Below, one piece after another: positions 1,257 through 20,796 of a DNA stretch of 47,297 nt. Every line of letters starts with the position of its first letter. Within the stretch, counting starts at the first letter, position 1. Where the stretch lies: the NCBI GenBank assembly GCA_009772925.1, contig WOUQ01000017.1, forward strand, positions 1 to 47,297. The letters are read 5' to 3'. The notes below the pieces were generated by a model that did no database searches, was not told the DNA's origin, and worked only from the letters and a program-made list of their open reading frames with translations. This stretch comes from a bacterium (GTDB lineage Bacteria; Pseudomonadota; Gammaproteobacteria; Burkholderiales; Thiobacillaceae). Made by a program: the position numbers and the translations under genes.

Positions 1257-2225
1257 ATGCTCGACACCCTGCCCCTGCTGCGATCCACCGACTTCCCGGC
1301 GCTGAAGCGCGACCGGCTGACCACTCTGCAGGTGAACCTGGGCTACCGCTGCAACCAGAGCTGCCTGCACTGCCACGTCAATGCCGGCCCCAAGCGCACG
1401 GAAATGATGGACGACGCCCAGGTGGACTTGATTCCACGGGTGCTGGCGGCGCGCGGGCTCGTCAGCTTGGACCTCACCGGCGGAGCCCCCGAGCTGCATG
1501 GCCGCTTTCGCTGGCTGGTGCGGGCGGCGCGGGACTTGGGGGTGAAGGTCATCGACCGCTGCAACCTGACCATCCTGTCTGAACCGGGCCATGAGGATCT
1601 GGCCGACTTTCTCGCCGAACAGGGGTTGGAAGTGGTGGCCTCCCTGCCCTGTTACCTGGAGGACAACGTCGATACCCAACGCGGCAAGGGGGTGTACGCC
1701 CGCAGCATCGCCGGACTGCAACGCCTGAACGCCCTGGGCTACGGCCAGCCCGGCAGTGGTCTCGTCCTCAACCTGGTGTACAACCCCGGCGGTCCCAGCC
1801 TGCCGCCCGCCCAGGCGGGGCTGGAGGCGGCCTACAAGCGGGAACTGGCGGAGCGCCACGGCATCGTCTTCGACCGCCTCTACAGCCTGGCCAACATGCC
1901 CATCCTGCGCTTCGGCAGCACGCTTCTGTCCAGGGGGCAATTCCACGACTACCTGGCCCTGCTCAAGGCCAGCCACAACCCGGCCAACCTGGACGGCGTC
2001 ATGTGCCGCGAACTGGTCAGCGTGGACTGGCGGGGAAGGCTGTACGACTGCGACTTCAACCAGATGCTGGGCCTGGCCATGGAGGGCCCCGCGACCCTGG
2101 CCGACCTGCTGGACGCCGACCCGGCCGATGCCACCATCCGTGTCGCGGGACACTGCTACGGCTGCACTGCCGGCCAGGGCAGCAGTTGCGGCGGCGCCCT
2201 GGAAGACGCGGGGTGCGGGCCATGA
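1257..2225 (+). CDS. arsS: Radical SAM protein, ArsS family (arsenosugar/selenodomain type)
   Basis: 322 residues. The radical SAM [4Fe-4S] motif is CNQSCLHC (Cys32, 36, 39), followed by the family-typical HVNAGPKRTEMM. A Cys-rich C-terminus, HCYGCTAGQGSSCGG (Cys300, 303, 311), is the signature of the domain first described in rSAM/selenodomain proteins. Characterised members (ArsS) transfer a 5'-deoxyadenosyl group from SAM to methylated arsenic on the way to arsenosugars. Some relatives use selenocysteine; here the visible positions are Cys and there is no internal TGA. No good ribosome binding site precedes the ATG, but the N-terminus begins as in the family. The stop overlaps the next start (ATGA), so it is translationally coupled to the flavoprotein. 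The matching transferases lie 2.3 kb downstream. Family is sure; that arsenic is the true substrate here is inference, since the local methyltransferase gene is decayed. Confidence 0.88.
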   Translation: MLDTLPLLRSTDFPALKRDRLTTLQVNLGYRCNQSCLHCHVNAGPKRTEMMDDAQVDLIPRVLAARGLVSLDLTGGAPELHGRFRWLVRAARDLGVKVIDRCNLTILSEPGHEDLADFLAEQGLEVVASLPCYLEDNVDTQRGKGVYARSIAGLQRLNALGYGQPGSGLVLNLVYNPGGPSLPPAQAGLEAAYKRELAERHGIVFDRLYSLANMPILRFGSTLLSRGQFHDYLALLKASHNPANLDGVMCRELVSVDWRGRLYDCDFNQMLGLAMEGPATLADLLDADPADATIRVAGHCYGCTAGQGSSCGGALEDAGCGP

Positions 2226-3700
2226 ACGATTGGGCCAAACCCCGCCGCTTCGACCGCAACCTCATCGTCATCGGCGCCGGCGCCGGCGGCCTGGTGACGG
2301 CCTACATCGCCGCCGCCGTGAAGGCGAAAGTGACCTTGATCGAGGCCCACCGCATGGGCGGCGACTGCCTCAACACCGGCTGCGTACCCTCCAAGGCCCT
2401 GATCCGCGCTGCCCGCTTGCTGGCCGACCTGCGCCGGGCCGGGGAGTTCGGCATCCACGCCGGGCCGCCCCGGGTGGACTTCGCCGCCGTCATGGACCGG
2501 GTGCGGGCGGTGATCCGCCAGGTGGAACCCCACGATTCGGTGGAGCGCTACACCGCCCTGGGGGTGGAGGTGATCCAAGGCCACGCCCGCCTGACGTCGC
2601 CCTGGACGGTGGAGATCGACACGGAGGCAGGGCCGCGCGCCCTCTCCGCCCGCGCCATCGTCCTGGCCACCGGCGCCGCCCCGGTGATTCCCCGCATCCC
2701 CGGTATCGACCGGGTGCGCCACGTCACCTCGGACACGGTTTGGAATCTGGACACGCTGCCCGCGCGCCTGGCGGTGCTGGGCGGCGGCCCCATCGGCTGC
2801 GAGCTGGCCCAGGCCTTCGCCGGGCTGGGCAGCCGGGTCACCCTGGTGGCCCGCTCAGGCCTGCTGGGCCGGGAAGACGGCGAGGTCGTCGCGCGGGTGG
2901 AAGCGGGCATGGCCGCCGACGGGGTGCGCGTGCTCAAGGGGGCCGAACCCCTGCGCTGCGAGGTGCTGGACGGGGAACAGCGCCTGATCGTGGGCGGCGC
3001 GGACGGCGAGGAGGCCGTCCCCTTCGACGTCCTGCTCTGCGCCACCGGCCGCAAGGCTCGGGTGGAAGGCTTCGGCCTGGAATATCTGGGCATCCCCCTG
3101 ACCCGCTCTGGCAGCATCGAGGTCAACGCCTACCTGCAAACCCGCCATCCCAGCATCTACGCCTGCGGCGACGCCGCCGGCCCCTACCAGTTCACCCACG
3201 CCGCCGCCCACCAGGCCTGGTACGCGGCGGTCAATGCCGTGTTCTCCGGCCTGCTCGGCCCCATCGGACGTTTCAAGGCCGACTACCGGGTCATGCCCCG
3301 CGTCACCTTCACCCGCCCCGAGGTGGCGCGGGTGGGCCTCAACGAAACCGAGGCCCAGGCACAGGGCATTGCCTACGAGCTCACCCGCTACGACCTGGCC
3401 GACCTGGACCGGGCCCTCGCCGACGGCGCCGCCCACGGCTTCGTCCAGGTACTCACCCCGCCCGGCAAGGACCGCATCCTGGGCGTCACCATCGTCGGCG
3501 AACACGCCGGCGAACTGCTGGCGGAATTCACCCTGGCCATGAAGCACGGCCTGGGGCTCAACAAGATCCTGTCCACCATCCACCCCTACCCCACCTGGAG
3601 CGAGGCGGCCAAGTACGCCGCCGGCGCATGGAAACGCGCGCACGCCCCCCAGGGCCTGCTGGCCTGGCTGGAACGCTTCCACGCCTGGCGGCGAGGGTAA
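2222..3700 (+). CDS. Mercuric-reductase-like FAD/NAD(P) disulfide oxidoreductase
   Basis: 492-residue flavoprotein of the class I pyridine nucleotide-disulfide reductases. N-terminal FAD fold with GAGAGG (about 18-23), redox-active pair CLNTGCVPSK (Cys49/Cys54), NAD(P) fold with GGGPIGCE (about 187-194), second FAD motif YACGDAAG, and a dimerisation domain. The end reads HPYPTWSEAAK: the usual catalytic base His of dihydrolipoamide dehydrogenase (HxHPT) is Tyr here, as in MerA- and SthA-like members, so a dithiol substrate is less likely. No extra Cys pair at the C-terminus and no N-terminal HMA domain, so it is not true MerA. Translationally coupled to arsS; such flavoproteins recur beside ArsS. 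A reductase for an arsenic, selenium or low-molecular-weight disulfide species is inferred only. Confidence 0.85.
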   Translation: MNDWAKPRRFDRNLIVIGAGAGGLVTAYIAAAVKAKVTLIEAHRMGGDCLNTGCVPSKALIRAARLLADLRRAGEFGIHAGPPRVDFAAVMDRVRAVIRQVEPHDSVERYTALGVEVIQGHARLTSPWTVEIDTEAGPRALSARAIVLATGAAPVIPRIPGIDRVRHVTSDTVWNLDTLPARLAVLGGGPIGCELAQAFAGLGSRVTLVARSGLLGREDGEVVARVEAGMAADGVRVLKGAEPLRCEVLDGEQRLIVGGADGEEAVPFDVLLCATGRKARVEGFGLEYLGIPLTRSGSIEVNAYLQTRHPSIYACGDAAGPYQFTHAAAHQAWYAAVNAVFSGLLGPIGRFKADYRVMPRVTFTRPEVARVGLNETEAQAQGIAYELTRYDLADLDRALADGAAHGFVQVLTPPGKDRILGVTIVGEHAGELLAEFTLAMKHGLGLNKILSTIHPYPTWSEAAKYAAGAWKRAHAPQGLLAWLERFHAWRRG

Positions 3701-3714
3701 ATCAAGGAGCGATC

Positions 3715-3942
3715 ATGCGATTCATCGACGCCATCCCCCTGCCCCTGCTGATCGTCCTCACCCTGTTCATGCTGGGCGCGCCCTTCGTCCCCGAGCCCCA
3801 CCTGGTGGAAAAGGCCCGCATGCTGGCCGAAGGTACCCTCAACCGCCCCATCGACATCTTCGACGTGTTCTGGCACCTGCTGCCGGCGGGGCTGCTGGCG
3901 ATCAGGTTGGCGAGAATGCGGCGCAGCCAGCCGCCATCCTGA
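3715..3942 (+). CDS. Small conserved membrane protein
   Basis: 75 residues with AAGGAG upstream of its ATG. The N-terminal helix (PLPLLIVLTLFMLGAPFVPE) is followed by the conserved-looking PEPHLVEKARMLAEGTLNRPIDIFDVFWHLLPAG, a second hydrophobic stretch and a basic tail. It resembles small proteins of unknown function that follow mercuric-reductase-like genes in proteobacteria (some are labelled RND transporter without evidence). It starts 14 bases after the flavoprotein gene, so it is probably the last gene of the arsS transcript. No function is assigned. Confidence 0.7.
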   Translation: MRFIDAIPLPLLIVLTLFMLGAPFVPEPHLVEKARMLAEGTLNRPIDIFDVFWHLLPAGLLAIRLARMRRSQPPS

Positions 3943-4479
3943 CTACGCTCGCACACCACCCCCGCGCCGCAGCCGCCAGGCCACCAGGACCAGCGCGAGG
4001 TAGTTGAGCGCCATGAACCACGGCGTGTTCCACGCCAGGCCGTCGAAGCCCTGCTGGGTGATGGGGTACAGCACCGGCACCGGGTAGAACTCGGCGGAAT
4101 GGGTGAACACGTCGATGACGATGTGCAACCACCAGCCCGCCAGGGCCAGGCCGACGTGCCGGCGCCAGGGCCACAGCAGCAGGGTGGCGGCCCCGGCGAT
4201 GACGGCGCTGTGCAGGATGCAGTGCAGATGGTGGGCCGCCTCCCCCACCCAGAAGGGCATGGCCGGCTCGCCACCCGGCTGGGCGACGGCGTAGTCGAGC
4301 AGGGCCTGGGCGGAACCGCCGCCGAAGGCTGCCCAGGCCAGCACCGGCGCCAGGTGGACCACGTCCGGCAACACCGACAGGCTCACCGCGGCGACCGCCT
4401 GGGGGCGCGTCACCGGACGACGACGGGCCAGCCAGCGGATGCCGAGGCCGGCCCAGAGACCGTGGGCGAGGATGTCCAT
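3943..4479 (-). CDS. Membrane-bound metal-dependent hydrolase-like protein (YdjM/DUF457 type)
   Basis: 178-residue multi-helix membrane protein starting MDILAHGLWAGLG, with conserved His-rich patches HGLW, SVLPDVVHLAPVL, HHLHCILHS and WWLHIVIDVFTHSAEFYPVP. These His/Asp patches are typical of the LexA-binding or YdjM-type inner membrane hydrolase family. The frame is open 21 codons further upstream; the start is placed at the Met that begins the family's MD.LAH pattern. It is convergent with the arsS operon (tail to tail, no gap) and divergent from the transferase operon, 71 bases between starts. Biochemical role unknown; its link to the surrounding pathway is by position only. Confidence 0.72.
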   Translation of the reverse strand: MDILAHGLWAGLGIRWLARRRPVTRPQAVAAVSLSVLPDVVHLAPVLAWAAFGGGSAQALLDYAVAQPGGEPAMPFWVGEAAHHLHCILHSAVIAGAATLLLWPWRRHVGLALAGWWLHIVIDVFTHSAEFYPVPVLYPITQQGFDGLAWNTPWFMALNYLALVLVAWRLRRGGGVRA

Positions 4480-4550
4480 GCCTGCATTGTTGGCCGAAAA
4501 CGGAAAAGATTCACTGCCGGTCCAAGCGTTTTCCCCGATCATCGCCCGTC

Positions 4551-5222
4551 ATGCACCTGTCCATCATCCTGCCCACTCTCGACGAGGCGGACGGAATCGA
4601 CGCCGCCCTGGCACCCCTGCAGGCCCTGCGCCGGGCGGGCCACGAGGTGATCGTCGCCGACGGCGGCAGCACCGACGGCACGCCGGCCCTGGCCACGCCC
4701 CTGGCGGACCGGGTGATTCAATCAACTCGCGGACGCGCCCGGCAGATGAACGCCGGGGCGGCGGCGGCCGGGGGCGACGCCCTGCTCTTCCTGCACGCCG
4801 ACACCCGCCTGCCCGAGGGCGCGGCGGAGCGCATCGCCGAAGTCCTCGCCGATCATGCCTGGGGCCGTTTCGACGTGCGCATCGAGGGCCAGCCGGCCCT
4901 GCTCGGCGTGGTGGCGGCGATGATGAACCTGCGCTCGCGCCTCACCGGCATTGCCACCGGCGACCAGGCCATCTTCGTCAGCCGCGCCGCCTTCGATGCC
5001 GTGGGCGGCTTCCCGGACCAGCCGCTGATGGAGGACATCGAGCTGTCCAAGCGGCTCAAGCGCCTGGACCCGCCGGCCTGCCTCACGGCCAGGGTGACCA
5101 CCTCCGGCCGGCGCTGGGAGCGCCACGGCGTCTGGCGCACCATCCTGCTCATGTGGCGGCTGCGCTTCGACTACTGGCGCGGCGTACCGGCGCAGCGGCT
5201 GGCGCGGCGCTATTACCCGTGA
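4551..5222 (+). CDS. TIGR04283-type glycosyltransferase (family 2)
   Basis: 223 residues, glycosyltransferase family 2 (GT-A fold). Starts LSIILPTLDEADGID, nucleotide-binding DGGSTDGT (about 44-51), metal-binding FLHADTRLP, and acceptor-side GDQAIFVSRAAFDAVGGFPD and LMEDIELSKRLKR. This subfamily was named rSAM/selenodomain-associated transferase 2 and later arsenosugar biosynthesis glycosyltransferase because it accompanies ArsS. First gene of a tight plus-strand run with the TIGR04282 transferase, an ATP-grasp enzyme, a YHS lipoprotein and egtD. Donor and acceptor are not known from sequence. A sugar transfer onto an organoarsenic or organoselenium intermediate is inference. Confidence 0.85.
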   Translation: MHLSIILPTLDEADGIDAALAPLQALRRAGHEVIVADGGSTDGTPALATPLADRVIQSTRGRARQMNAGAAAAGGDALLFLHADTRLPEGAAERIAEVLADHAWGRFDVRIEGQPALLGVVAAMMNLRSRLTGIATGDQAIFVSRAAFDAVGGFPDQPLMEDIELSKRLKRLDPPACLTARVTTSGRRWERHGVWRTILLMWRLRFDYWRGVPAQRLARRYYP

Positions 5223-5848
5223 AGCCGACCCGCATCCTGGTGTTCGCCAAGGCCCCCCTGCCCGGCCGGGTGAAGACCCGGCTGATCCCGGCCCTGGGCG
5301 CGGACGGCGCGGCGCGGCTGGCCCGCCACCTGCTTGATTTGGCCCTGGAGCAGGCGCGGGCGGCGGCCGTGGGTCCGGTGGAACTGTGCATGAGCCCGGC
5401 GCCGGGCCACGCCGACTGGACGGGTATCCCCCTGCCGTCCGGCATCGACACCAGTGACCAGGGCGACGGCGATCTGGGCGAACGCATGGCCCGCGCCGCG
5501 AAACATCACCTCGACAACGGCGAGGCGGTGCTGCTCACTGGCACCGACTGCCCCGGCCTCGACGCCGGCCGCCTGCGCGCCGCCGCCGCCCGGCTGGCGG
5601 ACCACGACGCCGTCTTCCATCCCGCCGAGGACGGCGGCTACTCCCTGCTGGGCCTCAACGCCTTCCATCCCGGCCTGTTCGCCGACATGCCCTGGAGCAC
5701 CTCGGCCGTGGCCCGTCTCACCCGCGAGCGCATGGCCGCCCTGGGCTGGCGGGTATGGGAGGGGGAGACGCTGCGGGACATCGACACCCCGGAGGATCTG
5801 GCCGAAGGTGGCCCGATACCGGGATTTGCGCTTGAATGCAGGCTTTGA
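5219..5848 (+). CDS. TIGR04282-type transferase (DUF2064)
   Basis: 209 residues with a GTG start overlapping the previous stop by four bases (GTGA). N-terminus RILVFAKAPLPGRVKTRL is the nucleotidyltransferase-like P-loop and KTRL signature of the DUF2064/TIGR04282 family; TGTDCPGLD and DGGYSLLGL follow, then SAVARLTRERMAALGWRVWEGETLRDIDTPEDL. The family is known as rSAM/selenodomain-associated transferase 1. The GT-A-like fold suggests use of a nucleotide-activated sugar, or sugar-nucleotide formation. With the preceding gene it forms the transferase pair seen with ArsS. Followed after 15 bases by the ATP-grasp gene, so one transcript is likely. Confidence 0.85.
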   Translation: MKPTRILVFAKAPLPGRVKTRLIPALGADGAARLARHLLDLALEQARAAAVGPVELCMSPAPGHADWTGIPLPSGIDTSDQGDGDLGERMARAAKHHLDNGEAVLLTGTDCPGLDAGRLRAAAARLADHDAVFHPAEDGGYSLLGLNAFHPGLFADMPWSTSAVARLTRERMAALGWRVWEGETLRDIDTPEDLAEGGPIPGFALECRL

Positions 5849-5863
5849 AATCCCGACCACGCC

Positions 5864-7180
5864 ATGCCTGAAGCCCCCACCCTGGTCTTGTTCAATTACG
5901 ACTGGGACCGTGCCGGATTCGCCCGCTGGCACGCGCAGTTCCCCGTGGACAGTGCCGGCTTCGACCTGTTCAGCTTTCCCAGCAACCTGCGACTGGCGGG
6001 CTTCGACCTGGAGCGCTTCGTCGATGGCCTGGCGCGCCGCGCCCGACGCCGCGGCTGGCGGGCCGTGACGTCCAACCACGAGCAGTTCGGCGCCCTGGCG
6101 GCGGCCCTGCTGGCCGAGCGCATGGGCTGGCCGGGCACGCCGGTGGGCGCGGTGCTGGCCTGCCAGCACAAGCTGCATGCCCGCCGGGTGCGGGAAGCGG
6201 TGGCGCCGGAAGCGAACGTGCCTTTCCAGCCCCTGCCCGCCCGCTATGGCGAACCCATCCCGGAGGACCTGGCCTATCCCTGCTTCGCCAAGCCGGTGAA
6301 GGCGGCCTTCTCGGTGCTGGCGCGCACGGTGCACAACCGGGAGGAACTGGTGGCCCTGACCCGTTTTTACCCCTGGGAGCTGTGGGTCATCCGCCATCTG
6401 GTGGAACCCTTCGAGCGGGTGGCGTGCCAGCGCCTGCCCGAGGCGGGCAGCGCCCACCGCATGCTGCTGGAGCAGCCCGCCGGCGGCCGCCAGTACAACC
6501 TGGATGGCTACGTCTTCAACGGCGAGTTGCGGCCCCTGGGCGTGGTGGAATCGGTGATGTATCCGGGCACCCAGGCCTTCATGCGCTTCGTCTATCCCTG
6601 CGCCCTGCCCGATGCCGCGCGGACGCGGGCCATCGACGTGGCGCGCCGCTTCCTGGCCGCCGTCGGCTTCGACCACGGCCTGTTCAACATGGAGTTCTTC
6701 CACGACCCGGCCAGCGACCGGCTCACGGTGATCGAGTTCAACCCGCGCATGGCGGCCCAGTTTTCCGATCTCTACCTGCGGGTGGACGGCCTGGATCTGC
6801 ACCGGGTGGCCCTGGCACTGGCGCACGGCCGCGACCCCGCCGCCCTGCCCAGGGCCGAGCCCAGCGCCGGGGTGGCGGCCAGCTTCGTCTATCGCAGCTT
6901 CGACCCGGCGGCGCGGCCGCCCATGCCCGGACCGGGCCGGCGCCGGGCCCTGGCGCGGCACTTCCCGGACGCCCTGCTGTTCCACTTCCCCAAGACGCCG
7001 GGCCAGATCACCCGGGATTTCAAGTGGCTGGGCAGCTACCGCTACGGCATCCTGCACCTGGGCGGGCGCGACGCCGGCGACCTGGCGACGCGTTGCCAGG
7101 CGGCCAGCGACCTGCTCGGCTGGGCGCCGACCTGTGGAACGGCGGGCGGGGTGACCGCGACTAAGCCTGTCCCTGCCTGA
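5864..7180 (+). CDS. ATP-grasp domain protein, substrate unknown
   Basis: 438 residues. N-terminal preATP-grasp-like part starting TLVLFNYDWDRAGFARWHAQ; ATP-grasp core from about residue 100 to 330 with FAKPVKAAFS (nucleotide-contact Lys), RQYNLDGYVFNGEL, FNMEFFHD and VIEFNPRMAAQFSDLY (metal-binding Glu/Asn/Arg). The C-terminus carries a GSYRYGILHLGG segment. ATP-grasp enzymes join a carboxylate to an amine or thiol through an acyl-phosphate. This one looks nearer to amino-acid/peptide ligases of the carnosine-synthase kind than to carboxylases, but I do not recognise a named subfamily. It lies between the TIGR04282 transferase and the YHS lipoprotein, in the same run as egtD. A histidine-derived or selenium/arsenic-containing substrate is a hypothesis from context only. 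Confidence 0.78.
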   Translation: MPEAPTLVLFNYDWDRAGFARWHAQFPVDSAGFDLFSFPSNLRLAGFDLERFVDGLARRARRRGWRAVTSNHEQFGALAAALLAERMGWPGTPVGAVLACQHKLHARRVREAVAPEANVPFQPLPARYGEPIPEDLAYPCFAKPVKAAFSVLARTVHNREELVALTRFYPWELWVIRHLVEPFERVACQRLPEAGSAHRMLLEQPAGGRQYNLDGYVFNGELRPLGVVESVMYPGTQAFMRFVYPCALPDAARTRAIDVARRFLAAVGFDHGLFNMEFFHDPASDRLTVIEFNPRMAAQFSDLYLRVDGLDLHRVALALAHGRDPAALPRAEPSAGVAASFVYRSFDPAARPPMPGPGRRRALARHFPDALLFHFPKTPGQITRDFKWLGSYRYGILHLGGRDAGDLATRCQAASDLLGWAPTCGTAGGVTATKPVPA

Positions 7181-7197
7181 TCCCTGGAGATCCCCCC

Positions 7198-7797
7198 ATG
7201 ACGACCCTGCGCATCCTGTTCCTGGCCAGCCTGGCCTTCCTGCTGGCCGGCTGCGGCCCCATGTCCGCCCAGAACCCCGCCGGCGCCTACAGCCCGGTGA
7301 ACGCGGTGGCCGAGGCCGGCGAGGCCCACCTGCTGCTGGGCGGCGCGGACGTGGTGGCCTATTTCACCGAGGGCGCCTATCGTCCGGGCCGTCCCGAGTT
7401 CAGCAGCCGTCACGAAGGCGTCACCCTGCGTTTCGCCAGCGCCGAGCACAAGGCGCTGTTCGACCAGGCCCCGGACAAGTACCTGCCCCAATTCGGCGGC
7501 TATTGCGCCAATGGCATCGCCTACGGCATCCCCTGGGGCGGCGACGCCGATACCTGGAAGATCATCGACGGCAAGCTCTACATCTTCGGCGGCCGGGCCT
7601 CGCAGGACGCCTTCGAACTCGACGAGGCCGGCAACCTGGCCCTGGCCGAGGGCTACTGGCGGGAGGAAGTGGCCGGCAACCACAGCTTCCTGCAGCGCGC
7701 CTGGCGCCTGCTGTGGCGGGTGCCGCACTACAAGAGCGGCGAAGAATTGGCCCAGGCCGTGGCCGTGGCCGCGGCCCGGCAGGCGGGCGGCCCGTGA
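7198..7797 (+). CDS. YHS-domain lipoprotein
   Basis: 199 residues. A lipoprotein signal peptide (hydrophobic h-region, lipobox LLAG before Cys18) predicts anchoring in the membrane facing the periplasm. The YHS-type region (about 40-125) reads GGADVVAYFTEGAYRPGRPEF, then FASAEHKALFDQAPDKYLPQFGGYCANGIAYGI. YHS domains occur in metal-handling proteins such as heavy-metal ATPases. Conserved Tyr/Phe and one Cys (GGYCANG) are present, but no clear metal ligand set can be read. It follows the ATP-grasp gene by 17 bases and overlaps egtD by four bases (GTGA), so EgtD translation is coupled to it. Its place in a selenoneine/ArsS locus is unusual; role unknown. Confidence 0.8.
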   Translation: MTTLRILFLASLAFLLAGCGPMSAQNPAGAYSPVNAVAEAGEAHLLLGGADVVAYFTEGAYRPGRPEFSSRHEGVTLRFASAEHKALFDQAPDKYLPQFGGYCANGIAYGIPWGGDADTWKIIDGKLYIFGGRASQDAFELDEAGNLALAEGYWREEVAGNHSFLQRAWRLLWRVPHYKSGEELAQAVAVAAARQAGGP

Positions 7798-8744
7798 ACG
7801 CGCCGCGGCTGATCCAGGTCAGCGCCGCCGACCCGGCGGCGATCCGCGCCGAACTCGTCGCCGGCCTGGAGGCCCCCCACCCCGCCCTGTCCCCCAAGTT
7901 CCTCTACGACGCCCTGGGTTCCCGGCTGTTCGCGGCCATCACCGAGCTGCCCGAGTACTACCCCACGCGCACCGAGGCGGCCATTTTCCGCGAGCACCTG
8001 GACGCCATGGCCGCCGACCTGGGCCCGGCGCCCACCCTGGTGGAACTGGGCGCCGGCAACTGCGAGAAGGCCGCCCGGCTGTTCGCTGCGCTGTCCGTGC
8101 GGCGCTACGTGGCGGTGGACATCTCCGCCGACTACCTGCTGGCCGCCCTCGACCGCCTGCAATACGAGCACCCGGCCATGCAGATGCTGGGCGTCGGCCT
8201 GGATTTTTCCGATGCGCTCGATCTGCCGGCCGAGGTGGGCCCCGGCCCCCGCCTGCTGTTCTACCCCGGCTCCAGCATCGGCAATTTCGCGCCGGACGAG
8301 GCCCTGGCCTTCCTGCGGCGCATGCACGCCGCCTGCGCCGGCGGCAGGCTGCTCATCGGCGTCGACCTGGTGAAGCCTCTGGAAGTGCTGGAACCCGCCT
8401 ACGACGACGCCCTGGGGGTGACGGCCGCCTTCAACCGCAACCTGCTATTGCACCTGAACCGCCTGATCGGCGCCGACTTCGCCCTGCACGACTGGCGCCA
8501 CGTGGCCTTCTTCAACACCCGGGAGTCGCGCATCGAAATGCACCTGGAGGCGGCGCGCGACGCGACGGTGCGCTGGCCCGGCGGCGAACGCCGCTTCGCC
8601 GCCGGCGAGCGCATCCACACGGAGAATTCCTACAAGTGGCGCCTCGACGATTTCGCCGACCTGCTCGGCGCGGCGGGCTTCCGCAAGCCCCGCGCCTGGC
8701 GCGACGGGCGGGACTGGTTCGCGGTGTTCGCGGCTGAGGCGTGA
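7794..8744 (+). CDS. egtD: L-histidine N-alpha-methyltransferase EgtD
   Basis: 316 residues, GTG start overlapping the YHS stop. EgtD trimethylates histidine with SAM to hercynine, the common precursor of ergothioneine and selenoneine. The family signature is near residues 35-61 (KFLYDALGSRLF, ELPEYYPTRTE). The SAM motif VELGAGNCEKAARL is at about 83-96, then FYPGSSIGNF, and a C-terminal HTENSYKW. Length matches the family (about 320). The nearest consumer of hercynine is senA, convergent downstream across a palindromic repeat. No egtA, egtC or egtE and no second EgtB lie in the window, so hercynine made here most likely goes to selenoneine. Confidence 0.93.
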   Translation: MNAPRLIQVSAADPAAIRAELVAGLEAPHPALSPKFLYDALGSRLFAAITELPEYYPTRTEAAIFREHLDAMAADLGPAPTLVELGAGNCEKAARLFAALSVRRYVAVDISADYLLAALDRLQYEHPAMQMLGVGLDFSDALDLPAEVGPGPRLLFYPGSSIGNFAPDEALAFLRRMHAACAGGRLLIGVDLVKPLEVLEPAYDDALGVTAAFNRNLLLHLNRLIGADFALHDWRHVAFFNTRESRIEMHLEAARDATVRWPGGERRFAAGERIHTENSYKWRLDDFADLLGAAGFRKPRAWRDGRDWFAVFAAEA

Positions 8745-8768
8745 GTGGGGGTGGGGATGGAGATGCGA

Positions 8769-8829
8769 TTATCGCGGCCAAGGCCGCTCCTACCCGGGCA
8801 TGCTGTAGGAGCGGCCTTGGCCGCGATAA
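8769..8829. repeat. REP-type palindrome between convergent egtD and senA
   Basis: Perfect 25-base inverted repeat (8769-8793 and 8805-8829) with an 11-base loop; the arm contains GTAGGAGCGGCCTTGGCCGC. It sits between two convergent stop codons and could serve as a two-way terminator. A related, less perfect copy lies at 34994-35068. This is a common dispersed repeat type in GC-rich proteobacteria. Confidence 0.8.
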
Positions 8830-8837
8830 GCATTCCC

Positions 8838-9986
8838 TCACCCCGCGCAACTGCGAAACCCGGCATCAACGTCGTTGCGCTCCGGCGTGAAGAAGTTGCG
8901 ATAGCGCGGATGCGCCATGCGCGGCGCGGTGGCGAGGCTGGCGCCGCGCAGCACCATGCGGTCGCCGAACCAGGGCGCGGAATAGTCGCGGTAGGGGTGA
9001 GGCGCGAAGCCGGGGTAGGGCTGGAAGCGGCTGGCAGTCCATTCCCACACATGGCCCCACCGGAAATCCGGCCGGGTGACGGCGGCCAGTTCCCACTCCG
9101 CTTCGGTCGGCAGGCGCCGGCCCGCCCAGCGGCACCAGGCCTCGGCCTCGTGCCAGGTCAGATGTACCGCGGCGGTGTCCAGGTCCAGGGCCTGCCAGAC
9201 GCCGCAGCGGCGCGTTTCCCAGGTCTGGCCGGCGCGGCGCAGGTAGCGCGGCGGGGCGGCCTCGGTGGCCTCCACATAGGCCAGGTAGCGGTGCCAGCTC
9301 ACCGGCTGGCTGTCGATCTCGAAAGCCGCCAGCGTGACCGGATGGGCGGCGAGTTCGTTGTCGAAGGCGAACCCCGGCCCACTCCAGCCCAGGCTCCAGT
9401 CGCCGCCGGGCAGGGCCAACGCGCGGGCCTCCGGCAGGCGCGCCGGCCGCGGGCGCAGGCCGTCCGGCAGGGGGATGTCCAGGGCCTGGGCCATGTAGAT
9501 GCCCGCCTCGCCGTGCATGTCTTCGTGGAACAGGGCCAGGCGATAGAAGTACAGGCCGGCGTCGGTCTCGGGCGCCGTCTTCAGCAGGGCCAGAGTCTCC
9601 TCCAGGCCGGCGGCAAGATAGGCGCGGGTGGCGGCGAGATCCGGCAAAGGCAGGTGCCAGCGGCGGGTGTGCGCCACCCGGCTGGAGTCATAGAGGGCAT
9701 CAGCCCCCGCCAGGCGGCCCGCCGGCCGGGCGTGGTCCGGCTCGCAGGCCAGGCCTCGGTCCCGCTGCCGGTTGCGGGCGATCCACCAGTCCTGGAACCA
9801 GCCCACGTGCCCGGCCTCCCACAGGGGCGGATTGAGCTGGGGCGAATAGGGCACGGGCAGGCTTTCGCCGAGGGCGGCGGCATAGGCCTCCAGCAGGGCC
9901 AGGGTGCGGGCGCGGCTGTCGTTAAGGGCGGCGGCGAGCAGGTCGCGGTCGCCCCGGCGCGCGGCTTCGGCGTGGTTGGCATGCAT
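8838..9986 (-). CDS. senA: Selenoneine synthase SenA (EgtB-like non-haem iron enzyme)
   Basis: 382 residues. N-terminal DinB-like domain plus C-terminal formylglycine-generating/sulfatase-modifying fold, as in EgtB. Candidate iron ligands are His60 (EAGHVGWFQDWW) and His154/His158 (HEDMHGE), the EgtB three-His pattern. The C-terminal half shows PVSWHRYLAYVEA, RLPTEAEWE, GHVWEWTASRFQPYPGF and RNFFTPERNDVDAGFRSC. In EgtB the sulfur donor is cysteine or gamma-Glu-Cys; SenA instead couples a selenosugar to hercynine. Assignment to SenA rather than EgtB rests on the adjacent senB and SelD fusion and on egtD nearby. The frame extends 17 codons upstream, but ATG 9986 is preferred: the longer form would overlap the divergent senB start. 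Only 16 bases separate the two starts. Confidence 0.88.
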   Translation of the reverse strand: MHANHAEAARRGDRDLLAAALNDSRARTLALLEAYAAALGESLPVPYSPQLNPPLWEAGHVGWFQDWWIARNRQRDRGLACEPDHARPAGRLAGADALYDSSRVAHTRRWHLPLPDLAATRAYLAAGLEETLALLKTAPETDAGLYFYRLALFHEDMHGEAGIYMAQALDIPLPDGLRPRPARLPEARALALPGGDWSLGWSGPGFAFDNELAAHPVTLAAFEIDSQPVSWHRYLAYVEATEAAPPRYLRRAGQTWETRRCGVWQALDLDTAAVHLTWHEAEAWCRWAGRRLPTEAEWELAAVTRPDFRWGHVWEWTASRFQPYPGFAPHPYRDYSAPWFGDRMVLRGASLATAPRMAHPRYRNFFTPERNDVDAGFRSCAG

Positions 9987-10002
9987 AACGGGAGAACCCA
10001 CG

Positions 10003-10998
10003 ATGGCTGACGGTTCGAGTATGCCGCAAGTGGTCATCGTCAGCCCCTACCTGCGCGCCGCCAACAACGGCAACTGGCGCACCGCCGAGCGCTGGCGCAG
10101 GCATCTGGCAGGGGTCTGCGAGGCGCGCATCGTCGACGCCTGGCCGGACGACCGGGCGGGCGCCGACCGGGCCATGATCGCCCTGCACGCGCGCCGCTCC
10201 GCCGCCGCCATCGCCGCCTGGCACGACGTCCATCCGGGCCGGGGCCTGGCCGTAGTGCTCACCGGCACCGACCTGTACCGCGACATCCACAGCGACGACG
10301 CCGCCCGCCGTTCCCTGGACCGGGCGCAAATCCTGGTGACCCTGCAGGCGCGCGGCCCCCTCGCCTTGCCCGTCGGAGTGCGCGGCAAAGCCCGGGTGAT
10401 CTACCAGTCCGTCCCCGCCCGCGCGGCCCTGGCCAAGACCGGCCGCCGCCTGCGCGCCCTGGCGGTGGGCCATTTGCGCGAGGAGAAGTCGCCGGACACC
10501 CTGTTCGCCGCCGCCCGCCTGCTGGCCGCGCGCGAGGACATCCTGATCGACCACGTCGGCGCCGCCCTCGATCCGGTCCTCGCCGAGGCGGCCCGCGCCG
10601 CCATGGCGGCCGCGCCCGGCTACCGCTGGCTGGGCGGCCTGCCGCACGAGGCGTCCCGGCGCCGCATCCAGCGCGCCCACCTGCTGGTCCATCCCAGCCG
10701 CATGGAAGGCGGCGCCCATGTCATCATCGAGGCGGTGGTGAGCGGCACGCCGGTGCTGGCCTCGCGCATCGACGGCAACGTCGGCATGCTGGGCGAGGAC
10801 TACGCGGGCTATTTCCCTTGGGGCGACGCCCCGGCCCTGGCGGCGCTGCTCACGCGTTGCCGCGCGGACCGGGCGTTTCTGGAGCATCTGAGCAGGCAGT
10901 GCCGCGAGCGCGCCCCTCTGTTCGAGCCCGCCGCCGAGGCGGCGGCCCTACGCCGTATGGCGGGCGATTTGTTGAAGAATGAGTCTTCATGTCTTTGA
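10003..10998 (+). CDS. senB: Selenosugar synthase SenB (TIGR04348 glycosyltransferase)
   Basis: 331 residues, GT-B fold glycosyltransferase of the TIGR04348 family, identified as SenB: it forms a 1-seleno sugar from a UDP-sugar and selenophosphate. Visible features are VIVSPYLRAANNGNWRTAERW near the start, VVLTGTDLYRDI (about 84-95), and the GT-B EX7E motif RMEGGAHVIIEAVVSGTPVLAS with Glu235 and Glu243. The ribosome binding site GGGAGAA lies 6 bases before ATG 10003. A later ATG (six codons on) would also preserve the domain. Divergent from senA with almost no spacer; selD follows on the same strand after about 110 bases that contain palindromes. SenA, SenB and SelD together with EgtD give the complete known selenoneine route. 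Confidence 0.92.
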   Translation: MADGSSMPQVVIVSPYLRAANNGNWRTAERWRRHLAGVCEARIVDAWPDDRAGADRAMIALHARRSAAAIAAWHDVHPGRGLAVVLTGTDLYRDIHSDDAARRSLDRAQILVTLQARGPLALPVGVRGKARVIYQSVPARAALAKTGRRLRALAVGHLREEKSPDTLFAAARLLAAREDILIDHVGAALDPVLAEAARAAMAAAPGYRWLGGLPHEASRRRIQRAHLLVHPSRMEGGAHVIIEAVVSGTPVLASRIDGNVGMLGEDYAGYFPWGDAPALAALLTRCRADRAFLEHLSRQCRERAPLFEPAAEAAALRRMAGDLLKNESSCL

Positions 10999-11012
10999 TT
11001 ACACCTGGCCGA

Positions 11013-11072
11013 GCATGAAAGTCATGCACGTTACCCTCACCCCCAACCCCTCTCCCGCTTGCGGGCGAGGGG
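11013..11072. repeat. Two adjacent palindromes between senB and selD
   Basis: A perfect 6-base stem (GCATGA/TCATGC, 3-base loop) at 11013-11027, then a 12-base stem with one mismatch (CCCCTCTCCCGC/GCGGGCGAGGGG) at 11047-11072. The second resembles a widespread intergenic repeat, and could attenuate or separate senB and selD transcription. No U-run follows either stem. Confidence 0.55.
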
Positions 11073-11109
11073 AGCGCAGTGAGCCGCTGACGCGGCTTTC
11101 ACGTTGACC

Positions 11110-13395
11110 ATGCGCGCCGCGGAGCCCCCCATCCTGCGGGACATCGTTTTCATCGGCGGTGGCCACAGCCACGCGGTGGCGTTGCGCATGTGGGCCATGC
11201 GCCCGGTGCCCGGCGCGCGTCTCACCCTGATCTGCACCGACACCGAGACGCCCTACTCGGGCATGCTGCCCGGCTTCATCGCCGGCCACTACCAATGCGA
11301 GGACATCCACATCGACGTGCGCCGCCTGGCCGAGTTCGCCGGCGCCCGCTACTACCGGGACGAGGTGGTGGGCATCGACCGGGCGGAACGCCGGGTACTC
11401 TGCCGCGACCGCCCGCCGGTGGCCTACGACCTCTTGTCCATCAACATCGGCTCCACCCCGCGCCTGGCCCAGGTGGCCGGGGCCGAGGCCCACGCCGTGC
11501 CGGTAAAGCCCATCCGCCAGTTCGGCGAGCGCTGGCGCGCCCTGCTGGAGCGGGTGCGCCAGCATGCCGGCCCAACCACCGTGGCCGTGGTGGGCGCCGG
11601 CGCCGGCGGCGTGGAACTGGCCCTGGCCATGCACCACCGCCTGCGCCGGGAGCTCCAGGCCCTGGGGCGCGACCCGGACGAAGTGGCCGTGCATCTGTTC
11701 AGCGCCGGCGCCGACATCCTGCCCACCCACAACCGCGCCGTGCGCCGCGCCTTCGAAGGCGTGCTGGCGCAGCGGGGCATCGCCGTGCATCGGGACGCGG
11801 AAGTGGTGGAGGTCGCCCCCGGCCTGCTCAAGACCCGGCGCGGCGCGACCCTGGCGGCGGACGAGATCGTCTGGGTCACCCAGGCCGGCGGCGCCACCTG
11901 GCTGGCTGGCACCGGCCTGGCCCTGGACGCGGCCGGCTTCATCCGCGTGGCGGACACCCTGCAAACCGAGACCGACCCGCGCATCTTCGCCACCGGCGAC
12001 TGCGCCGCCATGATTGGCCGCCCGCTGGAGAAAGCCGGCGTGTTCGCCGTGCGCATGGGGCCGGTGCTGGCGGAAAACCTGCGCCGGGCCGTGCTCGACC
12101 GGCCCCTGAAAGCCTACCAACCCCAGCGCCGCTGGCTGGCCCTGATCAGCACCGGCGATCGCCACGCCATCGTTTCCCGCGGCGCCTTCTTCGCCCGCGG
12201 TGACTGGGTGTGGCGCTGGAAGGACTGGATCGACCGCCGCTTCATGGTCCGCTTCAGCGACCTGCCCGGCATGGACGAGATGCAAGGCAAGGCCAAACCC
12301 GTCGCGGACGCGATCCCCCTGGAGGCGGCCGAGCAAACCCAGGCCCTCTCGGCGCTGGCCATGCGCTGCGGCGGCTGCGGCGCCAAGGTGGGCGCCAGCG
12401 TGCTGTCGCGCGCCCTGGCACGCCTGCAACCGATCCAGCGCGACGACGTGCTCATCGGCCTGGCCGACCCGGACGACGCCGCCGTGCTGCGGGTGCCGCC
12501 GGGCAAAGCGGTGGTGCAGACGGTGGATTTCTTCCGCGCCTTCATCGACGACCCCTGGGTGTTCGGCCGCATCGCCGCCAATCATGCCCTGGGCGACGTC
12601 TTCGCCATGGGCGCCGAAGCCCAATCCGCCACCGCCATCGCCACCGTGCCGCCGGGCCTGGAAAGCAAAGTGGAGGACACCCTGTTCCAGATGATGTCCG
12701 GCGCCGTCTCGGTGCTCAATGCCGCAGGCTGCGCCCTGGTGGGCGGCCATACCGGCGAGGGCCGCGAGCTGGCCCTGGGGTTCGCGGTCAACGGCCTGAT
12801 GGACGAATCCCTGGCCGGAGTGATGACCAAGGGCGGCCTGCGACCCGGCGACGCGCTCATCCTGACCAAGCCCATCGGCACCGGCACCCTGCTCGCCGCC
12901 CACGCCCGCCTGGCCGCCAAGGGCCGCTGGATCGACGCCGCCCTGGCCTCCATGCAGGTCTGCAACCGCGCCGCCGCCGCCTGCCTGATGGCGCACGGCG
13001 CCCGCGCCTGCACCGACCTCACCGGCTTCGGCCTGCTCGGCCACCTGGTGGAAATGACCAAGCCCTCCGGCGTGGACGCGGAACTGGAACTCGACGCCCT
13101 GCCCCTGCTGGAAGGCGCCCGCGAAACCGCCGCCGCCGGCATCCTCAGTTCCCTGCAACCCGCCAACGTGCGCCTGCGCCGCGCCGTGCGCAACCAGGAA
13201 GCGGCCCTCAACCACCCCGTCTATCCCCTGCTGTTCGACCCGCAGACCGCCGGCGGTCTGCTCGCCGGCGTGCCGGCGGACCAGGCCGAGGCCTGCCTGG
13301 CCGAACTGCGCCGCCTGGACTACTCCCACGCCGCCCGCATTGGCCGGGTGCTGGCCCAGGGAGAGGCGTTGGAGCCGATCTTCCTGGTGCTCTGA
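11110..13395 (+). CDS. selD: Selenide, water dikinase SelD fused to an NADH dehydrogenase-like flavoprotein (SenC role)
   Basis: 761 residues in two parts. Residues about 10-370 form an FAD/NAD(P) oxidoreductase related to type II NADH dehydrogenases (FIGGGHSHAVAL at the start, YSGMLPGFIAGHY, VGAGAGGVELALA, FATGDCAA). Residues about 410-761 are SelD, which makes selenophosphate from selenide and ATP. Its N-terminal motif RCGGCGAKVG holds Cys420/Cys423 and Lys426; GLADPDDAAVL, GGHTGEGRELALGF, LTDLTGFGLLGHL-like and DPQTAGGLLAG blocks follow. SelD is normally about 350 residues; this fused form is a recognised variant. The start is the first ATG; an in-frame TTG two codons earlier is less likely. 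Directly after senB, it fits as the selenophosphate supplier (SenC). The flavoprotein half may reduce a selenium species to selenide, which is inferred. Confidence 0.92.
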   Translation: MRAAEPPILRDIVFIGGGHSHAVALRMWAMRPVPGARLTLICTDTETPYSGMLPGFIAGHYQCEDIHIDVRRLAEFAGARYYRDEVVGIDRAERRVLCRDRPPVAYDLLSINIGSTPRLAQVAGAEAHAVPVKPIRQFGERWRALLERVRQHAGPTTVAVVGAGAGGVELALAMHHRLRRELQALGRDPDEVAVHLFSAGADILPTHNRAVRRAFEGVLAQRGIAVHRDAEVVEVAPGLLKTRRGATLAADEIVWVTQAGGATWLAGTGLALDAAGFIRVADTLQTETDPRIFATGDCAAMIGRPLEKAGVFAVRMGPVLAENLRRAVLDRPLKAYQPQRRWLALISTGDRHAIVSRGAFFARGDWVWRWKDWIDRRFMVRFSDLPGMDEMQGKAKPVADAIPLEAAEQTQALSALAMRCGGCGAKVGASVLSRALARLQPIQRDDVLIGLADPDDAAVLRVPPGKAVVQTVDFFRAFIDDPWVFGRIAANHALGDVFAMGAEAQSATAIATVPPGLESKVEDTLFQMMSGAVSVLNAAGCALVGGHTGEGRELALGFAVNGLMDESLAGVMTKGGLRPGDALILTKPIGTGTLLAAHARLAAKGRWIDAALASMQVCNRAAAACLMAHGARACTDLTGFGLLGHLVEMTKPSGVDAELELDALPLLEGARETAAAGILSSLQPANVRLRRAVRNQEAALNHPVYPLLFDPQTAGGLLAGVPADQAEACLAELRRLDYSHAARIGRVLAQGEALEPIFLVL

Positions 13396-13540: not shown

Positions 13541-13771
13541 ATGGCCATCATCGTCAATGTAAACGAGGCGAAGGCCCATTATTCCAGGCTGCTGGAGCTG
13601 GCCCACGCCGGCCAGGAAATCATCCTCGCCAAGGCGGGGCAACCCTATGCGCGCATGTTGCCGCTCGAGCCCGCCGTAGGCTGTCGGCAACCCGGCCGGC
13701 TCAGGGGGCGCGTCGGCGAGGCGTTTTTCGAGACCTTGCCGGACGCGGAACTGGCTGCCTGGGAATCCTGA
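13541..13771 (+). CDS. Type II antitoxin, Phd/YefM (VapB) family
   Basis: 76 residues. VNVNEAKAHYSRLLELAHAGQEIILAKAGQPYARMLPL is typical of Phd/YefM antitoxins; the acidic/aromatic C-terminal tail (FFETLPDAELAAWES) would wrap the toxin. Ribosome binding site AGGAAG lies upstream. The stop overlaps the toxin start by one base (TGATG). Antitoxins of this type bind their own promoter; a tandem repeat just upstream could be the operator. It opens the small defence insert between selD and ietAS. Confidence 0.85.
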   Translation: MAIIVNVNEAKAHYSRLLELAHAGQEIILAKAGQPYARMLPLEPAVGCRQPGRLRGRVGEAFFETLPDAELAAWES

Positions 13772-14157
13772 TGAAACTGCTGCTCGACACCCACACCCTG
13801 CTTTGGTGGTGGACGGACGACCCGCAACTGCCCGACAGCGCCCGCGCGCTGATCGCCGACGAGGGCAACGAGGTACTGGTCAGCGCCGCCAGTGCCTGGG
13901 AGATCGCCACCAAGCACCGGCTCGGCAAGCTGCCGGAAGCCGGCGATGCGATCCCCCGTTTCAACGAACTGGTGGCGGCGGATGGCTTTCTGCACCTGCC
14001 GGTGAACTACCTGCACAGCCTGAGGGCGGGCGCCTATGCCATCGACCATTGCGATCCCTTTGACCAGGTCCTGGCCGCCCAGTCCGAACTGGAATCCGCC
14101 AGCCTGGTGACGCGCGACCCCGCATTTACCGCATTCGGGACGCGGGTGGTCTGGTAG
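13771..14157 (+). CDS. PIN-domain toxin (VapC-type ribonuclease)
   Basis: 128 residues, full-length PIN domain. Acidic residues expected to hold Mg2+ are Asp6 (LLLDTHTLLWWW), Glu44 (SAWEIATKHRLGKL) and Asp95/Asp98 (DHCDPFDQVLAAQ). The sequence is typical of the PIN group paired with Phd-like antitoxins. It overlaps the antitoxin gene by one base, so the pair is coupled. VapC toxins cut specific RNAs, often tRNAs; the target here is unknown. No truncation is seen. Confidence 0.88.
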   Translation: MKLLLDTHTLLWWWTDDPQLPDSARALIADEGNEVLVSAASAWEIATKHRLGKLPEAGDAIPRFNELVAADGFLHLPVNYLHSLRAGAYAIDHCDPFDQVLAAQSELESASLVTRDPAFTAFGTRVVW

Positions 14158-16999: not shown

Positions 17000-17020
17000 G
17001 TATTCCTCCCTTGCTTTGGC

Positions 17021-17989
17021 TTATCGGTCGTGGATCGCCTTTCGTTCTTCCAGCGTGGCGCGGATGTCGGCCGTCTCCAAGAACGGACGGTCATGCAGGA
17101 TGGCGTGCTTGATGGCGTCTTCGCAGGCGCGGGTGAGGTCGCCGTGACTCAAGCCCATCGCGGCTGGAATGAGCGTCTTCCAGGCTAGCCGCCGGGTCTT
17201 GTAGCCGGCCAGTTTGGCCTTGAGGGTTTCGACGATGAGTTGATCATCCGGGACGGCGTAGCGGATGACGTCGTCGAAACGGCGGAACAGGGCGTGATCC
17301 AGGAGGTCCGGGTGGTTAGTGGCGGCGATGAGCAGGCTGTCGGACATGTCTTGCTCAATCAGTTGCAGAAAGCTGTTGAGCACCCGGCGGATTTCGCCGA
17401 CGTCGTTACCCAGCCCGCGCTGGCCGCCGATGGAGTCGAATTCGTCAAAGAGGTAGACGGCGCGGGTGCGGCGGATGGCGTCGAAGATGAGGCGCAGCTT
17501 GGCGGCGGTCTCGCCCATGAACTTGGTCATCAGGCTATCCAGGCGCACTACGAACAGCGGCAGGCTGAGTTCACCGGCGAGAACGGAAGCGGTAAGCGTC
17601 TTGCCTGTGCCCGGCGGGCCGACCAGAAGGAGTTTTTTGCGCGGGGCGAGGCCATGAGTGCGCAGCTTCTCGACTTGGCGTTGTTCCCGGATGAGGCGTT
17701 CCAGGCGGGCTTGGATGCCCTCGTCCAGCACCATATCGGCAAGACGCACCTTCGGGTAACTCGCTTGCAGCAGGTCCGCCATCTCGCCGCGCGGCTGGAC
17801 CAGGGGGATGGGTTGCCGAGACTGACGCGATTTGGCCTTGTCGATCAGGTCGCGCAGTTCCAGCGCCAGCTTGCCGTGGCCAATGCGCGCCTGATGGGCT
17901 GCCAGTTGCATGGCGACAGTGTTGAACCGTTCCTCATCGCCATCGATATGGGCGCGCAACAGGGCTTTGAGTTGGTCGGAACTGGGCAT
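17021..17989 (-). CDS. ietA: AAA+ ATPase of an IetAS defence system
   Basis: 322 residues. A helical N-terminal region (about 1-80) precedes an AAA+ core: Walker A GPPGTGKT (about 124-131), Walker B VYLFDEFD (Asp182, Glu183), sensor-type IAATNHP, and arginine finger-like ALFRRFDD. The fold resembles FtsH/spastin-like AAA proteins without a protease domain; the protease is the separate downstream S8 gene. The ATG at 17989 is preferred to an upstream TTG; the ribosome binding site is weak (GGACACC). First gene of the pair, transcribed leftward. The ATPase presumably controls or feeds the protease, by analogy with other AAA-protease pairs. Confidence 0.87.
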   Translation of the reverse strand: MPSSDQLKALLRAHIDGDEERFNTVAMQLAAHQARIGHGKLALELRDLIDKAKSRQSRQPIPLVQPRGEMADLLQASYPKVRLADMVLDEGIQARLERLIREQRQVEKLRTHGLAPRKKLLLVGPPGTGKTLTASVLAGELSLPLFVVRLDSLMTKFMGETAAKLRLIFDAIRRTRAVYLFDEFDSIGGQRGLGNDVGEIRRVLNSFLQLIEQDMSDSLLIAATNHPDLLDHALFRRFDDVIRYAVPDDQLIVETLKAKLAGYKTRRLAWKTLIPAAMGLSHGDLTRACEDAIKHAILHDRPFLETADIRATLEERKAIHDR

Positions 17990-18179: not shown

Positions 18180-18599
18180 GCTTCTGGCCAAAGGGTTGGA
18201 TACCACCACCGGCATCGGCCTGCCGCAACCGCGCCCTCAACACCGCCATGTCCCGACGGTGGCATGATCCCCTTGGCCTGCCCCCCATAGCCCGCAGCCA
18301 CGGCCAGTTGCTCCTCGGTCACGTCCACGCCCAGCAAGCTTCCCGACTCCCCCACCCGTTGCGCCAGGACGTAGACGCGCGGCCCGAGCCGCAGCCCATG
18401 TCGAGCATGTTCAAGCCTTGGAGCAGGGTCAAGCAGACCAGGCCACAGCCGCAGTAGCGCGCCGTCCCTTCCTGGTGGATGCGGGCGAGCAAGGGCAAAT
18501 CCGTTCCGGCATCAGGCTGACGTCGCGGCAGGCGAAGGTGCCCGGGTCGGCGCTGGTTTTCAACGGGTGGGCGTCGTGGTCCTTCACCGGTTCGTGCAT
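18180..18599 (-). pseudogene. Decayed ArsM-type (arsenite) methyltransferase
   Basis: An intact GAGGAGG ribosome binding site and ATG start a reading frame like the cyanobacterial-type ArsM group: MHEPVKD...LKTSADPGTFAC...MPER. The frame shifts near 18498 into LPLLARIHQEGTARYCGCGL and LNMLDMGCGSGR (SAM motif I), and shifts again near 18378 into VYVLAQRVGESGSLLGVDV and TEEQLAVA. Family similarity fades after about 18290; a possible VVVSN remnant lies near 18200. At least two frameshifts and loss of the C-terminal half leave no working enzyme. It starts 10 bases after the TVP38-rhodanese gene, as the last gene of that operon. Its lost 3' half ends where the ietAS upstream region begins. The exact 3' boundary is uncertain. 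Confidence 0.75.
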
Positions 18600-20441: not shown

Positions 20442-20469
20442 CGGCGTCTCCCGGGCGCGCCACGCAGCC

Positions 20470-20679
20470 TCATTTGCCGCCGCTCCTGATCATGCCGCGC
20501 AGGTCCTCGTATTCCTTGCGCACCTTCTCGTTGAAGAGCAGGCCGGGCGGGTCCTTGTTGACGAAGGTGAGCACCTTGCGCCCGGCGGCATCCACCGCGC
20601 CGGGGACGGCATGGCTCTGCTGGGCCACCGCGGGCAGGGCGAGCGTCAGAAGAAGCAGGGAAGTGAGCAGTGGTTGCAT
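20470..20679 (-). CDS. Small secreted protein of unknown function
   Basis: 69 residues: a clear signal peptide (MQPLLTSLLLLTLALPAVA, cut after AVA) and a mature part of about 50 residues, QQSHAVPGAVDAAGRKVLTF then VNKDPPGLLFNEKVRKEYED. GGAGAT-like ribosome binding site upstream. No Cys in the mature part. It sits between the ArsR-rhodanese regulator and the sterol-desaturase-like gene in one minus-strand operon. I do not recognise a family. Confidence 0.7.
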   Translation of the reverse strand: MQPLLTSLLLLTLALPAVAQQSHAVPGAVDAAGRKVLTFVNKDPPGLLFNEKVRKEYEDLRGMIRSGGK

Positions 20680-20796
20680 GGCGATCTCCTCGCGTTGCGT
20701 GAGCGTTCGCGGGTCGCAAAACCCGCGCCTGGGTGGCCGGCGCGACCAGCCTCCGGAAGGCTCGGCGTGGCGCGCCGGACCTTCATTCCTGATCCT

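Follow-up and report, generated by a model that had tools for sequence, protein, structure and literature searches.

Does a set of selenoneine genes lying among arsenosugar-type genes mark one extended pathway or two neighbouring ones? The question is raised by positions 1257–13395 of a 47,297-nucleotide stretch of a Thiobacillaceae genome (GenBank assembly GCA_009772925.1, contig WOUQ01000017.1, here C30; genome size 3.2 Mb), the whole of which we call the window. A preliminary description made from the letters of this stretch had proposed a single pathway to a modified selenium (or mixed selenium/arsenic) metabolite, and had omitted two genes between the ArsS-linked transferases and egtD: an ATP-grasp ligase (5864–7180, +) and a YHS-domain protein (7198–7797, +). 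We found that the ligase marks genomes holding both gene sets, and the selenoneine and ArsS half-pathways may well be functionally coupled through it. More tentatively, the product could be a so far undescribed selenium metabolite that perhaps contains arsenic as well, formed when the dedicated ligase joins a selenoneine-derived carboxylate to a product of the ArsS/TIGR04282/TIGR04283 half.

The genes that the preliminary description had placed together are all intact at 1257–13395, and the named reading frames in this interval are open and without internal stops. On the ArsS side, arsS (1257–2225, +; radical SAM, motif CNQSCLHC) scored 443.6 bits against TIGR04167 (cut-off 300), the TIGR04283 family 2 glycosyltransferase (4551–5222, +) 281.8 bits (cut-off 182) and the TIGR04282/DUF2064 transferase (5219–5848, +) 204.9 bits (cut-off 134), each above the curated threshold for the arsenosugar system. 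The TIGR04282 protein is also a distant relative of CofC-like nucleotidyltransferases (TIGR03552, 39.5 bits, under the cut-off of 105). The accompanying flavoprotein (2222–3700, +; CLNTGC motif) is an FAD pyridine-nucleotide-disulfide oxidoreductase by PF07992/PF02852 and scored 492 bits against NF004991, under the cut-off of 620. An intact ArsM is missing from the cluster. On the selenoneine side, egtD, encoding the histidine N-alpha-methyltransferase (7794–8744, +; TIGR03438, 373.2 bits, cut-off 290.9), senA, encoding selenoneine synthase (8838–9986, −; NF041186, 493.7 bits, cut-off 420; PF03781, with PF12867 under its cut-off), senB, encoding selenosugar synthase (10021–10998, +; TIGR04348, 427.9 bits, cut-off 300), and an oxidoreductase–SelD fusion (11110–13395, +; TIGR03169, 514.3 bits, cut-off 310; TIGR00476, 291 bits, cut-off 125) likewise exceed their curated cut-offs. 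The fusion carries GGCGAK, presumably the catalytic Cys/Lys of SelD, and would take the SenC role; at 474.3 bits it falls short of the 700 needed for TIGR04369 (oxidoreductase/SelD-related fusion, not SelD). SenB carries EGGAHV, described as its key motif in the part of PMC10891094 available to us. The TIGR04283, TIGR04282, ATP-grasp, YHS and EgtD genes form a tight run on one strand, and because the gaps along it are only −4, 15, 17 and −4 bases, egtD shares the run of the transferases, as had been claimed. Chance or misread genes can be rejected, given that the named families exceed their cut-offs and the frames are open.

The bridging ligase belongs to the ATP-grasp superfamily by PF13535 (29.5 bits, cut-off 27), and K143, E277, E291 and N293, which we take to be its Mg/ATP residues, are invariant in 51 sequences. 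Its predicted fold is best matched by an L-amino-acid ligase, although it differs from the ATP-grasp L-amino-acid ligases BL00235 and BacD in sequence (15–16% identity) and in its neighbours. A plasmid search with the ligase returned nine records, each below 60% identity. The adjoining YHS protein scored 104.3 bits against a (seleno)protein family, NF041384 (cut-off 70), and has a lipoprotein-like start, as judged by eye.

We examined three draws of genomes: 274 from the class, 230 from the order and 61 relatives, the last overlapping the order draw. The ligase was present in 27 of the 230 order genomes, including 25 of the 42 with both ArsS and SenB, 1 of the 29 with SenB only (G451, whose SenB falls under the family cut-off), 1 of the 33 with ArsS only (G366) and 0 of the 126 with neither. 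Split by EgtD, it occurred in 25/39 genomes with EgtD, SenB and ArsS, 1/15 with EgtD and SenB, 1/20 with EgtD and ArsS, 0/3 with SenB and ArsS but without EgtD, and 0/25 with EgtD alone; all 27 ligase genomes have EgtD. Counted by family, it was found in 11 of 16 families holding a genome with both sets compared to 1 of 17 other families with either set (p = 2e-4), and shuffling within families gave p = 0.008 for the pair and p = 0.015 for SenB among ArsS genomes. Among the relatives, all ten ligase genomes carry both sets. Three simpler accounts are not favored: a generic gene of large genomes, given its absence from order genomes with neither set; a gene simply following EgtD, given its absence where EgtD stands alone; and vertical descent with one ArsS clade, given that labels change 13 times across the ArsS tree (from which locus L113 was left out, being from the same assembly as L098).

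Scanning genome contigs, we obtained 285 relatives of the ligase, and neighbors were counted within ~10 kb of the best 80 of these 285, or over less where contigs end. Cultured bacteria with such relatives include named Limnobacter strains, Rhodoferax antarcticus and Hydrogenophaga aromaticivorans. The commonest were YHS (52 loci), EgtD (42), SenB (31), DUF547 (25), VTT proteins (22), a selenate-type substrate-binding protein (21) and the flavoprotein (17), with ArsS in 5, TIGR04282 in 5 and TIGR04283 in 4; by clustering, SenA was present at 29 loci and oxidoreductase/SelD-type proteins were present at 25, and a similarity count that includes weak paralogs gave 35 for SenA. One binding protein (L154:14451–15269, −) was scanned against TIGR04553 (putative selenate) and scored 407 bits; the other selenate-type loci (21 of 80 in all) were counted by similarity to that protein. 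Among 41 fully flanked ligase loci, 15 had neighbors of both types, 9 only of the ArsS type (here including flavoprotein, VTT, DUF547 and phosphoesterase) and 11 only of the Sen type. Flavoprotein, VTT and DUF547 genes are frequent neighbors of ArsS in the order, whether the ligase is present or absent. At two loci, L104 and L106, ArsS-type transferases accompany the ligase in the absence of nearby Sen genes. As a separate observation, a patatin-like phospholipase is encoded near the ligase in 18 of the 80 loci (for example, L189:11948–12868).

ArsS and SenB themselves co-occurred in both larger draws, by Fisher tests made without tree correction. In the class draw, ArsS was found in 138 genomes, SenB in 18 and both in 16 (p = 5e-4), with ArsS in 16/18 SenB genomes compared to 122/256 others; in the order draw the counts were 75, 71 and 42 (odds ratio 5.5, p = 2e-8), with ArsS in 42/71 SenB genomes compared to 33/159 others. 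Close physical linkage between the two genes is uncommon, and fragmented assemblies may hide some of it. They lay within 10 kb in 3 of the 16 class genomes with both (the genome under study and G121 and G236 of one genus; ~0.1 expected at random) and, among 21 relatives, no more than 11 kb apart in 3 (the same genome, G283 and G293). Both sets, wholly or partly, stand together elsewhere in G283, G293, G121, G236, L114, L128, L145, L180 and L187, and their arrangement varies among the ligase loci L113 (of the G293 assembly), L114, L128, L145, L180 and L187. A single pathway would be hard to uphold if the sets adjoined in this genome only and ArsS elsewhere followed ArsM and not SenB; the survey found that they adjoin in other genomes too and that ArsS follows SenB in addition to ArsM.

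The surroundings of ArsS also differ with the ligase. We read them in 20 of 26 genomes with ligase and ArsS, in 20 of the 33 that have ArsS alone, and in every one of the 17 that hold both sets yet lack the ligase; contig ends cut some stretches short. ArsM lay within 8 kb of ArsS in 0/20 ligase genomes, 2/17 two-set genomes lacking it and 6/20 ArsS-only genomes, and a phosphoesterase-like gene lay within 8.5 kb in 14/20, 5/17 and 2/20, respectively. The latter gene also precedes the ligase at L117, L118 and L128. Its family (~335 amino acids; L104:3807–4811 and 17 relatives) had no Pfam match for three members, no meaningful NCBIfam match for 18 members and no meaningful PDB sequence match. 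Metallophosphoesterases are the top structural matches of the predicted model, but the name is tentative because that model is poor (predicted local distance difference test score of 55). Across whole genomes, four of the ten relatives with the ligase (G311, G314, G325 and G331, which have ArsS and SenB) gave no ArsM match at E 1e-25. Because of this, and because no ArsM lay within 8 kb of ArsS in the ligase genomes read, ArsS itself may act on selenium in some lineages.

How the two halves might meet can be sketched from known chemistry. The EgtD step yields hercynine. SelD, SenB and SenA with EgtD make selenoneine (PMC9814287), a route also described in the accessible part of PMC10891094, and a radical SAM enzyme adenosylates arsenic in oxo-arsenosugar biosynthesis, according to the portion of PMC12159101 available. 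In the window, SelD would supply selenophosphate, SenB would convert it to a selenosugar, EgtD would provide hercynine and SenA would form selenoneine; in the other half, ArsS would adenosylate a metalloid, TIGR04282 would activate a sugar from the ArsS product and TIGR04283 would transfer the activated sugar. The ATP-grasp ligase would activate a carboxylate with ATP and join it to an amine or alcohol, and its simplest use would be to link a hercynine- or selenoneine-derived carboxylate to a product of the ArsS half. The coupling draws on gene content, open frames, the tight gene run, the ligase's occurrence where both halves are found, its neighbors and its predicted fold. We infer what the ligase acts on, how the steps follow one another, what they yield and whether the ArsS half handles arsenic, selenium or both.

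Several results weigh against a joined pathway. Among the 61 relatives, the odds ratio for association with ArsS is 8.4 for ArsM and 4.6 for SenB, and of the 42 order genomes that have ArsS together with SenB, only 1 has the two within 10 kb, as read from coordinates in many fragmented assemblies. The ligase is lacking in 17 of those 42 genomes. Of the fully flanked ligase loci, 6/41 have neighbors of neither type, and the ligase has ArsS itself within 10 kb in 3/41. Within-family shuffling was not significant for ArsS among SenB genomes (p = 0.45, with two informative families), and purine-pathway ATP-grasp enzymes fit the ligase fold nearly as well as the best match. Beyond the order, the ligase was matched in 13 of 273 class genomes, all at or below 365 bits, 12 of them with ArsS and 5 with SenB; in 15 stretches from these 13 genomes, no ArsS, transferase or Sen neighbors were found beside the match, although L205 has YHS, L211 a weak ArsM-like match and L212 a flavoprotein-like match. 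The first of these loci, from G264, holds a fragment at a contig end with 61% identity and YHS adjoining, which is likely an ortholog; its genome has ArsS without a SenB match and therefore counts against a strict rule that both sets be present. Finally, the window departs in part from the ArsM-free pattern, in that its host genome has ArsM and relatives in the genus keep the local type. What holds of the single-pathway proposal is that the sets recur together and the ligase marks genomes with both, while in the relatives the association of ArsS with ArsM is no weaker than that with SenB, and close linkage is uncommon. We therefore take coupling to be likely and the joined pathway as a whole to be partly supported.

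Some of these points would suit two separate pathways sharing a metalloid/selenium island, with the ligase tailoring selenoneine only and its link to ArsS reflecting shared lineages and habitats. The neighbors of the ligase are mostly Sen genes and the selenate-type importer, ArsS is seldom near it, and the test within families of SenB genomes was not significant. Such an arrangement nevertheless seems rather unlikely, with the ligase in just one of the 29 SenB-only genomes and paired with ArsS-type transferases away from Sen genes at L104 and L106. Those two loci point instead toward the ArsS half, as do the 15 bases separating the ligase from TIGR04282 in the window, the presence of EgtD in every ligase genome of the order draw, and the occurrence of ArsS in 12 of the 13 class genomes beyond the order that have a (mostly distant) match, together with G264. 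On that account the ligase would add an amino acid, such as hercynine from EgtD, to an arsenosugar, and the product would be free of selenium. We judge this distinctly improbable: only 1 of the 20 genomes with EgtD and ArsS but no SenB has the ligase, the neighbors of the ligase repeatedly include the selenate-type importer and SelD, and four of the ten ligase relatives gave no ArsM match at the threshold used. It could also be that SelD is merely a hub, ArsS homologues being sometimes selenoproteins, so that selenophosphate supply would unite the ArsS and Sen genes without a common product. TIGR04167 does appear in selenoprotein-family tables in the parts of PMC9312934 and PMC13188914 available to us, and in G121 and G236 a SelD fusion stands between the two sets. 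However, none of the ArsS matches listed for the class draw has an in-frame stop, the window's ArsS reads through with Cys, and the ligase is left unexplained, which makes a SelD hub very improbable.

Compared with known systems, each half of the locus is familiar; a dedicated ligase uniting the two is, to our knowledge, new. The selenoneine pathway was reportedly described by Kayrouz in 2022 as SenA–SenB–SenC with EgtD in Variovorax paradoxus. The window resembles it in its SenA, SenB and EgtD, which pass the curated cut-offs, in having SelD and the SenB motif, and in the placing of senA and senB side by side on opposite strands, an arrangement shared by 17 of the 18 SenB loci of the class draw; it differs in the fusion of SelD to an oxidoreductase, the ATP-grasp and YHS genes within the egtD run and the ArsS-type transferases upstream. 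ArsS is said to be the subject of a 2021 study by Cheng. Relative to the ArsS/TIGR04282/TIGR04283 arsenosugar set, the window shares all three proteins above cut-off and the flavoprotein, VTT, sterol desaturase and ArsR–rhodanese neighbors, whereas its local ArsM is a remnant and selenoneine genes lie inside the set. Literature searches, outside whose reach most subscription journals lay, found nothing on selenoneine together with arsenosugar, on a selenoneine gene cluster with an ATP-grasp enzyme, or joining ArsS, arsenosugar, radical SAM and glycosyltransferase. The small selenium-containing molecules known from bacteria are few, and selenoneine and ovoselenol are recent additions according to the available portion of a 2026 review (PMC13188914). 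A conserved ligase almost confined to genomes with selenoneine genes and the ArsS set thus points to a further selenium product that can be targeted, and offers a concrete gene for deletion. It also reopens the question of the substrate of ArsS-type enzymes where ArsM is absent.

The local arsM is dead, as the preliminary description had stated: frameshifted pieces in different frames at 18287–18501 (−) match a relative's ArsM (tblastn E 1.8e-10), between an AAA ATPase gene (17021–17989, −) and a TVP38 gene. Its bearing on an arsenosugar role is smaller than had been argued. The host genome has a second ArsM on contig C71 (362 bits, open frame) in what appears by eye to be an ordinary ars operon; within the genus, an open arsM of the local type adjoins a TVP38 end on another contig of G283, and in G293 an ArsM match and arsS lie 18 kb apart, separated by the selenoneine genes. 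Because the host keeps another open arsM and these relatives keep the local type, we regard the dead gene as a local loss. Next to the remnant, the TVP38/VTT-type membrane protein (18610–19584, −), a sterol desaturase-like protein named by eye (19581–20441, −) and an ArsR–rhodanese regulator (20797–21471, −; NF033788, 69.1 bits, cut-off 55) are 61%, 65% and 46% identical to proteins of L060. Elsewhere the three genes are grouped next to ArsS (in L060, L069 and L074), and their presence at 18610–21471 therefore places the selenoneine genes inside a wider ArsS neighborhood. In G283, two different TVP38 C-terminal ends occur at contig starts (L099:5–418 and L276:5–406), one of them adjoining the open arsM, and are possibly a repeat that broke the assembly.

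Two further genes lie within the ArsS part of the window: one for a 75-amino-acid small membrane-like protein (3715–3942, +), which has no family match and also occurs close to ArsS in some relatives, and one for a YdjM-like inner-membrane protein (3943–4479, −; PF04307, 22.7 bits, under the cut-off of 29). Directly 3' of the SelD fusion are two small genes (13541–14157, +) that by eye resemble a Phd/PIN toxin–antitoxin pair, the second without an NCBIfam match. An S8 peptidase and AAA ATPase pair (14516–17989, −) next to the arsM remnant resembles the IteS/IteA anti-phage pair, with scores under the cut-offs (62.5 of 900 bits and 207.9 of 510 bits). A protein encoded at 25269–25805 (+) resembles, by eye, a REP-associated Y1 transposase.

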